Shown: in pieces, positions 10,424 to 34,088 of the stretch | How positions within the stretch are numbered: the stretch's first letter is position 1 | Layout of the letters: every line of letters starts with the position of its first letter | NCBI GenBank assembly: GCA_011389865.1 | Contig: JAABTL010000003.1 | Coordinates: forward strand, 1 to 64,000 | DNA from: Trueperaceae bacterium | Lineage (GTDB): Bacteria > Deinococcota > Deinococci > Deinococcales > Trueperaceae | Length of the DNA stretch: 64,000 nucleotides | Reading direction: 5' to 3' | The notes under the pieces: generated by a model | Told to the model about the DNA's origin: nothing | Database searches by the model: none | The model's input: only the letters and a program-made list of their open reading frames with translations | Made by a program: the position numbers and the translations under genes

Positions 10424-10648
10424 GTCGCCGCCGGCACGTCCGGCACGCCGGCTGGGCGAGGGCGGCGCCCAGCCGGCGTGGATGCTGGACCGCGACACGT
10501 CGCTGCAGGTGGGCGTCGTCGGGAACATCATCACCGCCTTCGAGGAGGCGCGCCCCGGTGCGACGGTCGACCCGCCGTGCCCGACGTGCACGAGGCTCCC
10601 GGCCGCACGCTCGCCTTAGGCCGCGCCGGCGACGACAGGCAGCGACCG

Positions 10649-16437: not shown

Positions 16438-17268
16438 ATGGACCTGATCTGCCTCGCCGCCGGCGCCGGCACCCGCATGGGGCGCCTGGGCGGCTACCTG
16501 CAGAAGTGCATGTACCCGGTCGGCCTGCGGCCCTTCCTCGAGCATGCCTTGGCGCAGGTGCTCGCCAGCGACGCGGTCGACCCCGGCCGCGACCGGCTGG
16601 CGCTGGTCGTCGGGCACCTCGCCGAGCAGGTGCGTGGGCACTTCGGGGACGCGGTCGACGGCCTGCCGATCGTCTACGTCGAGCAGACCGAGCGCCTGGG
16701 GACCGGCCACGCGCTGTCGCTGGCGGCGGACGTGCTGCGGCCGGTCGCGCCGGCGATCGCGTGGCAGGCCGACCTGTTCCCGACCACGGCGATGGTGGAC
16801 GCGGTCGCCCGGCACCCGGCGCCGAACGTCGTGACGCTGGGCCGCGGCCACGAGGACGAGTCCGACCGGCTGCGTGCCAGCGTCGAGAGTGATCGTGTAA
16901 CGCGCGTGTGGGACGGTGATGGGGAGCTGTTCGACGTCGGCCTGTGGAAGCTGGCGCCCGCCGTGCTGGGGCGCATGACCGAGGTGCGGGCGGAGAAGGG
17001 GGAGTACCGCATGCTGCCGAACCTGCAGCGCAGCCTGGACGACGGTGCCGAGGTCGGCTACGTCGTCGCCGACGCCTGGATTCACCTCGGCGGCACCCTG
17101 CCGACGCCCGAGGCCAACGTGCGCGACGTGGTGCGCCGCGTGTGGGCCGCGAGCGACGCGCTGCTGGCGGGCCGGGCGACCGACGCCTACTCTGGCGCCG
17201 GGGCAGGAGACCCAGGGGGGTTCCGCGCAGCGGAACCCCAGGCGTCGACCGGAGGTCGACGCACATGA
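16438..17268 (+). CDS. Sugar-phosphate nucleotidyltransferase-like protein
   Basis: This 276-residue NTP_transferase fold protein starts DLICLAAGAGTRMGRLGGYL, a variant of the G-x-G-T-R signature, then QKCMYPVGLRPFLEH where the usual signature has PK in place of QK. QTERLGTGHALSLAADVL matches the nucleotide-binding loop of the family. Such enzymes join NTP and a sugar 1-phosphate into an NDP-sugar. Its stop overlaps the start of a GHMP sugar kinase (ATGA), a pairing that recalls the HddA/HddC steps for nucleotide-activated heptose, though the sugar here is unknown. The last 22 residues are encoded by DNA that forms two hairpins and are probably not part of the fold. Confidence 0.78.
   Translation: MDLICLAAGAGTRMGRLGGYLQKCMYPVGLRPFLEHALAQVLASDAVDPGRDRLALVVGHLAEQVRGHFGDAVDGLPIVYVEQTERLGTGHALSLAADVLRPVAPAIAWQADLFPTTAMVDAVARHPAPNVVTLGRGHEDESDRLRASVESDRVTRVWDGDGELFDVGLWKLAPAVLGRMTEVRAEKGEYRMLPNLQRSLDDGAEVGYVVADAWIHLGGTLPTPEANVRDVVRRVWAASDALLAGRATDAYSGAGAGDPGGFRAAEPQASTGGRRT
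17217..17262 (+). promoter_or_regulatory. Twin perfect hairpins covering the GHMP kinase ribosome-binding site
   Basis: The first hairpin is GGGGTTCCGC-GCA-GCGGAACCCC (17217-17239, 10-bp stem). The second is GCGTCGACC-GGA-GGTCGACGC (17242-17262, 9-bp stem). The Shine-Dalgarno GGAGG (17251-17255) sits in the loop and first stem bases of the second hairpin, nine bases before the kinase ATG. Ribosomes finishing the upstream gene would melt it, so kinase translation should depend on upstream translation. Confidence 0.6.
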
Positions 17269-18230
17269 TCGTTGCCCGCACCCCCCTGCGCATCCCGCTG
17301 GGCGGCGGCCTCACCGACCTGAAGGCCTACGCCGTGCGCTTCGGCGGCACGACGGTCAGCTCGACGATCGGCCTGGCGGCCCACGTGACGCTGCTGCCGA
17401 GCCTCGACGGGCGCTTCGAGGTGGTCGCCGAGGGCCGGGTGGAGACCGCCGAGCACCTCGATGACCTGCGTCACGACCTCGTGCGCGAGGCGCTGCGCTC
17501 GGTGGACCCGGCGCACCCGCCGGTGCGGCTCGCGGTGTGGGTCGACGTCGCGGGACAGAGCGGCCTGGGGACCTCGGGTGCGGTGACCGTGACCCTCCTG
17601 CATGCTCTGCGGGCCTTCCGCGGCGAGACGCCCGACGGCGCCGTGCTCGGCGCCGAGGCCGCGAACATCGAGGTCGAGGTGCTGCAGGGCGCCTCCGGCT
17701 ACCACGACCCGCACGTGTGCGCCCGCGGTGGCCTGCTGCGGCTCGACTACGACGGACCGCGGGTGCGCGCGCGCGAGGTGGGCATGGCGCCCGAGGCCCG
17801 CGCGGCCTTCGAGGGCTCGCTGCTGCTCTTCTCCAGCGGCCGGCAGGCGCGCACCAAGCCGTCGCTCGACCTCCTCAGCAGCCACTTCGAGGAGGCGCTG
17901 CCGGTGCTGCACGACCTCAAGGCGCTGGCGAACGAGCTCGAACGCGCCCTCGAGGCCGGAGACCTGGCGCGCGCCGCCTGGTGCATCGGCGAGAAGCAAC
18001 GGCTCAAGGAGCGGCTGCCGGGCCACTTCGTCGACGACCACGTGCGCGACGTGACCGCGCGGGTGCGCGCGACGGGCGCCGCCCCGCAGCTCCCCGGCGG
18101 GAAGATCAGCGGTTACGTGCTCGTCTGCTGCCCCGACGGTCAGCACGACGCGGTGCGGGCGGCGCTGTCCGAGCTGCACGAGGTGCCCCTGCGGTTGACC
18201 CGCGGCGGCTCGACGTTCTTGGCCATCTGA
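17265..18230 (+). CDS. GHMP-family sugar kinase (heptose 7-phosphate kinase-like)
   Basis: This 321-residue protein begins MIVARTPLRIPLGGGLTDL, the GHMP opening that positions the sugar. The ATP loop is VAGQSGLGTSGAVTV near residue 96. LLLFSSGRQARTKPSLDLLS and the C-terminal GGKISGYVLVCC correspond to motif 3. The closest characterised relatives by pattern are D-glycero-D-manno-heptose 7-phosphate kinases (HddA) and L-fucose/D-arabinose kinases. It is translated from an ATGA overlap with the nucleotidyltransferase gene and probably phosphorylates the sugar which that enzyme then activates. Confidence 0.8.
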   Translation: MIVARTPLRIPLGGGLTDLKAYAVRFGGTTVSSTIGLAAHVTLLPSLDGRFEVVAEGRVETAEHLDDLRHDLVREALRSVDPAHPPVRLAVWVDVAGQSGLGTSGAVTVTLLHALRAFRGETPDGAVLGAEAANIEVEVLQGASGYHDPHVCARGGLLRLDYDGPRVRAREVGMAPEARAAFEGSLLLFSSGRQARTKPSLDLLSSHFEEALPVLHDLKALANELERALEAGDLARAAWCIGEKQRLKERLPGHFVDDHVRDVTARVRATGAAPQLPGGKISGYVLVCCPDGQHDAVRAALSELHEVPLRLTRGGSTFLAI

Positions 18231-32387: not shown

Positions 32388-34031
32388 ATGCCCGTGCACC
32401 CCGACGCCGGACGCCCCGCCGCACCCGAACACCGCGCCCACGTGCCCAGGCTCGTGGCGGACTACTACACCCACGCCCCCGACGCCGCCGACCCGCGCCA
32501 ACGGGTGGCGTTCGGCACCTCGGGCCACCGCGGTCGCGCCAGCGAGGGCGCGTTCAACGACGCCCACGTGGCAGCCATCGTCGAGGCGGTCGTCGAGCAC
32601 CGCCGCGAGGCCGGTGTCGGCGGCCCCCTGTTCCTCGGGGCCGACACGCACGCGCTCTCCGAACCCGCGTTCCGGACGGCGCTGGAGGTGTTGGCCGGCC
32701 ACGGGGTCGAGGTGGTCGTCGAGCGCGACCTCGAACCGCTGCCCACGCCGGTCGTCTCGCACGCGATCCTGCGGCACGCCGCCGTGCGCGGCCAGCGTGC
32801 CGACGGCATCGTGATCACGCCGTCCCACAACCCGCCGCAGGATGGCGGCATCAAGTACAACCCGCCCCATGGCGGGCCGGCGGGCGCCGACGTGACCGGT
32901 GCGATCGAGCGGCGAGCCAACGCGTTGCTCGAGGCCGGCGGCGGCGCGACGAGGCGCAGCGACTGGCGCGCCGCGATCTCGGCCGACACCACGCACCGGC
33001 GTGACGTGGTGGGGCCCTACGTCGACGACCTGCGCAGCGCTCTCGACCTCGAGGCCGTGCGCGCGGCCGGCGTGCGGATGGGCGTCGACCCGATGGGCGG
33101 CGCCAGCCTCGCCACCTGGGACCGTGTGGCCGACACGTACGCGCTCGATCTCGTCGTCGTCGACCGCACGATCGACGCCTCCTTCGCCTTCATGCCGCTC
33201 GACCACGACGGCAAGGTGCGCATGGACTGCAGCTCGCCCTACGCCATGGCGAACCTGCTGCGCCTGCGCGACCGCTTCGACGTGGCCTTCGGCAACGACC
33301 CCGACGCGGATCGTCATGGGATCGTGGTGCCCGGCAGCGGGTTGCTCGACCCCAACGCCTACCTCGCGGTGGCGATCGACTACCTCCTGGGCCACCGCGA
33401 CGGCTGGTCGCCCGACCTGGCGGTCGGCAAGACGCTGGTGTCGAGCGCGCTGATCGACCGCGTCGTCGCGCGGGCAGGGCGCCGGCTCGAGGAGGTGCCG
33501 GTCGGCTTCAAGTGGTTCGTCGAAGGGCTCCACGACGGGCGCATCGCGTTCGGCGGCGAGGAGTCGGCGGGCGCCAGCTTCCTGAGGCGCGACGGCCGCA
33601 CCTGGACGACCGACAAGGACGGCATCCTGCTGGCGCTGCTGGCGGCCGAGATGACGGCGGTGACCGGCGACGATCCCGGCAAGCGGCACGCGGCGCTGAC
33701 GGCCGAACTCGGCGCGACCGCCTACCGTCGCGTCGACGCGCCCGCGACGCCCGAGCAGAAGCGTGCCCTCGCCAGCCTGTCGCCCGCTGCGGTCACCGAC
33801 ACGGAGCTGGCGGGCGACCGCGTCACCGCCGTGCTGACGCGCGCGCCGGGCAACGACGCCCCGATCGGCGGCCTCAAGGTGGTCACCGAGCGCGGCTGGT
33901 TCGCCGCCCGGCCGTCGGGCACCGAAGACGTGTACAAGATCTACGCCGAGAGTTTCGGGGGCGAGGCCCACCTGGAGCGGCTGATCGCGGAGGCGCGGGA
34001 GCTGGTCGCACGTGCGTTTGGGGGTGTCTGA
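32388..34031 (+). CDS. pgm: Phosphoglucomutase (alpha-D-phosphohexomutase family)
   Basis: ATG 32388, with GAGGAGG before it, gives 547 residues, the length of E. coli-type Pgm. The active-site serine is in [20 protein letters not shown], the Mg2+ loop is [13 protein letters not shown], the sugar loop is [15 protein letters not shown] and the phosphate loop is [13 protein letters not shown]. It interconverts glucose 1- and 6-phosphate, feeding glycogen, trehalose or cell-surface sugar synthesis. TAGCCT at about 32352 may be its -10 box. The gene is divergent from marR and shares the operator-bearing spacer. A 12-bp hairpin overlaps its stop codon. Confidence 0.95.
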
Positions 34032-34051
34032 GGGTTACGCCCTCAGACACC
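34023..34051 (+). terminator. Terminator hairpin overlapping the pgm stop codon
   Basis: GGTGTCTGAGGG-TTACG-CCCTCAGACACC is a perfect 12-bp stem. The pgm TGA lies within the left arm. No clear T-run is present. Confidence 0.6.
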
Positions 34052-34063
34052 ACCAAACGCCTG

Positions 34064-34088
34064 GTGTGCCCGGCGCAGCCGGGCACAC
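34064..34088 (-). terminator. Terminator hairpin for the Usp gene
   Basis: GTGTGCCCGGC-GCA-GCCGGGCACAC is a perfect 11-bp stem five bases beyond the end of the minus-strand Usp gene. With the previous hairpin it insulates two convergent genes. Confidence 0.6.

Follow-up and report, generated by a model that had tools for sequence, protein, structure and literature searches.

In-frame insertion as the probable origin of a double hairpin at a nucleotidyltransferase–kinase junction in Trueperaceae

In bacteria, the Rickettsia palindromic elements (RPE) lie in frame within protein-coding genes, and the CGTC-tagged REPs have no known dedicated transposase (PMC3733652). Elements composed of two hairpins are described from the mitochondrial DNA of Allomyces (Paquin et al. 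2000, as cited in PMC2800124), and translational coupling by RNA unfolding is documented as well (PMC12548453; PMC6728339). The present study concerns two perfect hairpins that stand side by side where a sugar-nucleotidyltransferase gene meets a sugar kinase gene in a Trueperaceae bacterium. Our analyses suggest, with good confidence, that this junction element belongs to a genus-specific population of double hairpins and was inserted in frame into the 3′-terminal part of the nucleotidyltransferase gene. The window, that is, the whole 64,000-nucleotide stretch analyzed, has a GC content of 73% and belongs to a contig of 149,930 bases in a genome of 3.05 Mb. The features of the junction are as follows.

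16438..17268, plus strand: sugar-nucleotidyltransferase gene, 276 amino acids; both hairpins lie in a lineage-specific tail formed by its last ~28 codons.
17265..18230, plus strand: GHMP-family sugar kinase gene, 321 amino acids; heptose-phosphate kinases are its closest solved relatives.
17211..17264, plus strand: double-hairpin element, homologous to a 51-nt unit of which the relative G002 has three tandem copies.
17217..17239, plus strand: hairpin 1, a 10-bp perfect stem, GGGGTTCCGC-GCA-GCGGAACCCC, with a GCA triloop and a C-G closing pair.
17242..17262, plus strand: hairpin 2, a 9-bp perfect stem, GCGTCGACC-GGA-GGTCGACGC, with a GGA triloop and a C-G closing pair.
17251..17255, plus strand: GGAGG Shine-Dalgarno-like motif, read directly from the sequence, nine bases 5′ of the kinase ATG.
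17265..17268, plus strand: ATGA overlap of the kinase start (ATG, 17265-17267) and the nucleotidyltransferase stop (TGA, 17266-17268).

The first protein matches Pfam NTP_transf_3, its best NCBIfam match being archaeal GlmU-like enzymes at a score below the cut-off, and the second matches Pfam GHMP_kinases_N. An earlier, sequence-only reading of this DNA had described mismatch-free stems of 10 and 9 bp next to each other at the end of the nucleotidyltransferase gene, the second containing the GGAGG of the kinase gene, and both statements hold. The two stems are separated by an AG linker of 2 nt, a 66-nt RNA fold consists of exactly hairpins 1 and 2 (−37.9 kcal/mol, z = −5.5, with 0 of 200 shuffled sequences doing as well), and the GGA of the motif forms the triloop of hairpin 2 with the last GG in its 3′ arm. 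In a fold window of 101 nt, a competing structure rearranges hairpin 1 and retains hairpin 2.

The gene pair is widespread, and the hairpins are not. The nucleotidyltransferase was found in 30 of 61 genomes searched (own genome included, E ≤ 1e-20) with the kinase following it, the relatives with the kinase being Trueperaceae metagenome-assembled genomes. The tail with hairpin 2 occurs only in G000 (the own genome), G001 and G002, three of the five species of one Trueperaceae genus (G000–G004, all incomplete assemblies); it is absent from the 27 other relatives with the gene pair, including G003, G004 and all other genera, which have a short, tight stop/start junction without a double hairpin. 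Across the 30 junctions, one of which (L031) was read with an unlikely start codon, the 4-nt overlap is found at 17, and the remainder are other overlaps, none longer than 14 nt, or gaps of no more than 10 nt. In G002 the junction carries three 51-nt units, tandem and in frame. In G001 the start-proximal hairpin is perfect but built of a different stem, and the region corresponding to hairpin 1 forms no palindrome, which leaves the order of events uncertain. All three species have a Shine-Dalgarno-like motif inside hairpin 2, reading GGAGG, GAAGG or GAAGGGG.

Single perfect hairpins are common in this DNA: the window holds 22 matches with a stem of at least 9 bp, at 15 places, compared with a mean of 12.6 in Markov simulations. 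Window positions 10444-10480 hold a single perfect hairpin of 15 bp whose loop has 7 bases. In 831 kb of the 3.05-Mb own genome, from which its densities were taken, single hairpins with loops of 3–8 reach 153 per Mb against 27–180 elsewhere and so are not special to the genus. Their frequency in the window and in its simulations, and the similar densities in several GC-rich relatives, are what a reading as chance palindromes of a very GC-rich coding region, with no common origin, would predict. That reading seems to us hardly tenable, because adjacent pairs (stem at least 9, gap at most 8) stand far above simulation, at 12 in 831 kb versus 0, 2, 0, 0 and 0 in five simulations, and because insertions that are present in one species and absent in another, shared ends and covarying stems are unexpected by chance. 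In the small samples from other genera, 736 kb in all (336 kb of G009 and 100 kb each of G010, G008, G019 and G023), there was one such pair, in G010, with a different sequence. Perfect triloop hairpins with a stem of at least 10 number 41 in the 831 kb versus 10 in one Markov simulation; those of the form C(GNA)G number 15 versus 1 simulated, and 1 in the 736 kb of other genera.

Many members of the population share a layout in which a GCAGTT...AACTGC palindrome is followed by a linker (CAA/TTG, AAT, CA or AG) and a second palindrome, at times in tandem. Matches to GGCAGTY...RACTGC, with both strands as listed, number 19 in G000, 16 in G001, 14 in G002, 6 in G004 and 0 in G003; on inspection, those in G008 and G009 were not perfect palindromes, and the listed matches of the pattern GGTTC...GAACC from other genera were likewise imperfect. 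Two contigs of G004, C312 and C170 (L140, L219), are possible contaminants from a species near the own genome: the pstB on C312 is 97% like that of the own genome, the pstB on another G004 contig is 88% like it, and the listed contamination of this assembly is 6%. Hairpin 1 of the junction lacks the GCAGTT...AACTGC ends typical of most members, and the assignment of the junction element to the family rests on its architecture, linker and loop type and on the copy in hemF described below. The sequence-only reading had proposed a search for further copies of the palindrome. The exact junction palindrome has no further copy in the own genome at up to 3 mismatches, since members share architecture and just part of their sequence; the architecture is what recurs, in the 12 pairs counted above. 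Blast of the G002 tandem unit against the five genomes gave only weak, short matches beyond the junction locus, and the several inspected showed no comparable double hairpin, a hairpin cluster in G004 having come to light by pattern instead. The window has no match in Rfam.

Relatives of the junction element also lie inside genes. In hemF (L118:9512-9566, contig C1 of the own genome), an in-frame double hairpin accounts for 34 extra codons and has in common with the junction element the AG linker and the outer arms GCGTCG...CGACGC-AC. The stretch is missing from ten other aligned proteins (an eleventh sequence, from G004, did not fit one frame), G008 having a shorter insert of different sequence. 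In ileS (L119:9429-9492, also on C1), a 69-nt in-frame insert with a double hairpin is found in G000 and G002 only and is absent at that place in G001, G003, G004, G009 and G008. Its second hairpin has two pairs altered on both sides between G000 and G002, and native codons in the other genomes can be aligned with its right arm. Together with presence and absence within the genus and the tandem units of G002, these copies and the elements at gene ends support what had been offered earlier as an alternative, namely that a palindrome was inserted and lengthened the reading frame.

Elements also sit at gene ends, some of them between convergent genes, and often span the stop codon. One of them is the second double hairpin of the window, which is polymorphic among the species of the genus.

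34014..34088, no strand assigned: second double hairpin of the window, lying between two convergent gene ends, one of which has its stop codon within the first arm.

In several further elements the stop codon, by simple GC-frame gene calls, likewise lies inside the first arm or at its edge. At pstB and at the gene terminating in MRFGS*, native coding sequence down to and including the stop codon makes up the left arm of the first hairpin, opposite a right arm that repeats it in inverted orientation; the inverted copy is absent in G003 and G004 (MRFGA*) and at the pstB of G008, G009 and G010. That so many elements lie right at gene ends, including between convergent genes, could mean that they are transcription terminators or mRNA 3′-end stabilizers of the genus, one of which happens to lie within an operon. 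We regard this as improbable. No U-tract follows the elements inspected, the junction element being followed by ACATGATC; transcripts would be cut short at the copies in hemF, in ileS and between two overlapping genes; and in G010, of another genus, pstB is followed by a hairpin and a T-run like those of a classical intrinsic terminator (L311), where the genus studied here has double hairpins.

Three stem pairs of hairpin 2 are altered on both sides relative to G001, and in the junction element as a whole, aligned as five units (G000, G001 and the three tandem units of G002), 4 of 19 pairs are altered on both sides, and the paired cells amount to 90.5%, compared with 30–53% when partners are slid. 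For the pstB element, the corresponding figures are 5 of 41 pairs and 99% of cells. Such covariation shows that pairing has been maintained, whether by selection or by copying, within three to five related rows, some of which are tandem copies.

Another reading is that hairpin 2 is a selected coupling device, hiding the ribosome-binding site of the kinase until translation of the end of the first gene opens it. The presence of a Shine-Dalgarno-like motif inside hairpin 2 in all three species agrees with this model, as does the perfection of the start-proximal hairpin in each of them despite three changed stem pairs, while some other hairpins at the locus have decayed; moreover, coupling by RNA unfolding has precedents, cited at the outset. 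We nevertheless think a selected device unlikely. The overlap is conserved beyond the three species and the hairpins are not, and the same architecture recurs where no start codon is near, both in hemF and ileS and at the ends of genes. In addition, opening the kinase start (bases −15 to +5) costs 15.2 kcal/mol, the 84th percentile of 163 own-genome starts with a Shine-Dalgarno motif, taken by a simple ORF rule, and the costs in the hairpin-free G003 and G004 are 15.1 and 18.6 kcal/mol. These comparable values indicate that hairpin 2 does not make the kinase start unusually closed. The strict, hairpin-enforced coupling of the two enzymes that had been proposed from the sequence thus finds no support, given a junction that is tight family-wide without hairpins and an opening cost that is not exceptional. 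Translational coupling through the 4-nt overlap itself is likely, by analogy with described cases (PMC6728339, PMC12548453).

Collectively, the comparisons favor a model of in-frame insertion in an ancestor from which some species of the genus descend. Members of the inserting population consist of two adjacent perfect palindromes with a linker of 2–7 nt and, often, C(GNA)G triloops, and one of the hairpins would form at insertion, by inverted copying of the adjacent native sequence through foldback or template switch. The pattern expected of such copying is clear at ileS, at pstB and at the MRFGS* gene end. At the junction it is only suggestive, and the right arm would there be native pre-start sequence: the 12 bases 5′ of the G003 start (GGGGGTCGGCGC) are similar to the right-arm region at the junction (GGAGGTCGACGC), a resemblance that fits an inverted-copy origin but could also be due to chance. 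With the element in place, hairpin 2 contains the ribosome-binding site of the kinase, in its loop and right arm. Fresh initiation at the kinase is then predicted to be weak, with translation probably owed mainly to ribosomes completing the upstream gene, as the ATGA overlap implies, and any effect of the element on protein production is predicted to be secondary. Neither a donor element nor a transposase or target duplication could be found for the double hairpins, and their movement is therefore inferred from presence and absence. Priming of foldback synthesis by stable GNA triloops was also considered; the copied ileS hairpin has no such loop, and the proposal remains an idea.

If the inverted-copy pattern is true, conserved genes, among them ileS and hemF, would be gaining in-frame palindromes through a mutational process that can, in a single step, enclose a ribosome-binding site in a hairpin. 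Perfect, covarying hairpins beside start codons then need not be regulatory, since compensatory changes are no argument for regulation if one arm was copied from the other. More tentatively, and at somewhat less than even odds in our judgment, these hairpins may represent a class of bacterial double-hairpin elements whose insertion copies the native neighbor in inverted form, building a locus-specific hairpin beside the element's own palindrome, with the arms kept matched by repeated copying or by selection. In the part of the literature covered by our search, there was no description of such elements in Trueperaceae.

Several known systems share parts of this picture. The RPE and the CGTC-tagged REPs resemble the present elements in being short palindromic repeats in frame within genes, here hemF, ileS and the nucleotidyltransferase tail; they differ in that each element here has two different hairpins, with stems that vary widely between copies and species. 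A CGTC end tag was not seen in the members inspected, CGTC occurring within hairpin 2 (GCGTCGACC) and not as a shared end. The REP/BIME sequences associated with the RAYT transposase likewise place palindromes at gene ends, often in tandem. However, the GTAG tetranucleotide of those sequences was not seen at a palindrome end in the members inspected by eye, and an origin of this type was set aside, Y1_Tnp (PF01797) being found in none of the five genus genomes, which are incomplete assemblies, versus 6 of 26 genomes searched. For translation, the closest parallel is the coupling of genes VII and IX of phage f1 (PMC12548453), which combines a −4 nt overlap with a hairpin just 5′ of the downstream start; at the junction described here the hairpin is a lineage-specific insertion, known from sequence alone. 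Finally, the double-hairpin elements of Allomyces, as the citing paper describes them, also consist of two adjacent hairpins, differ in frequency between close species and lie at times within genes. The setting here is a GC-rich bacterial chromosome, in which a two-hairpin unit recurs and is present or absent at the same site in close relatives.
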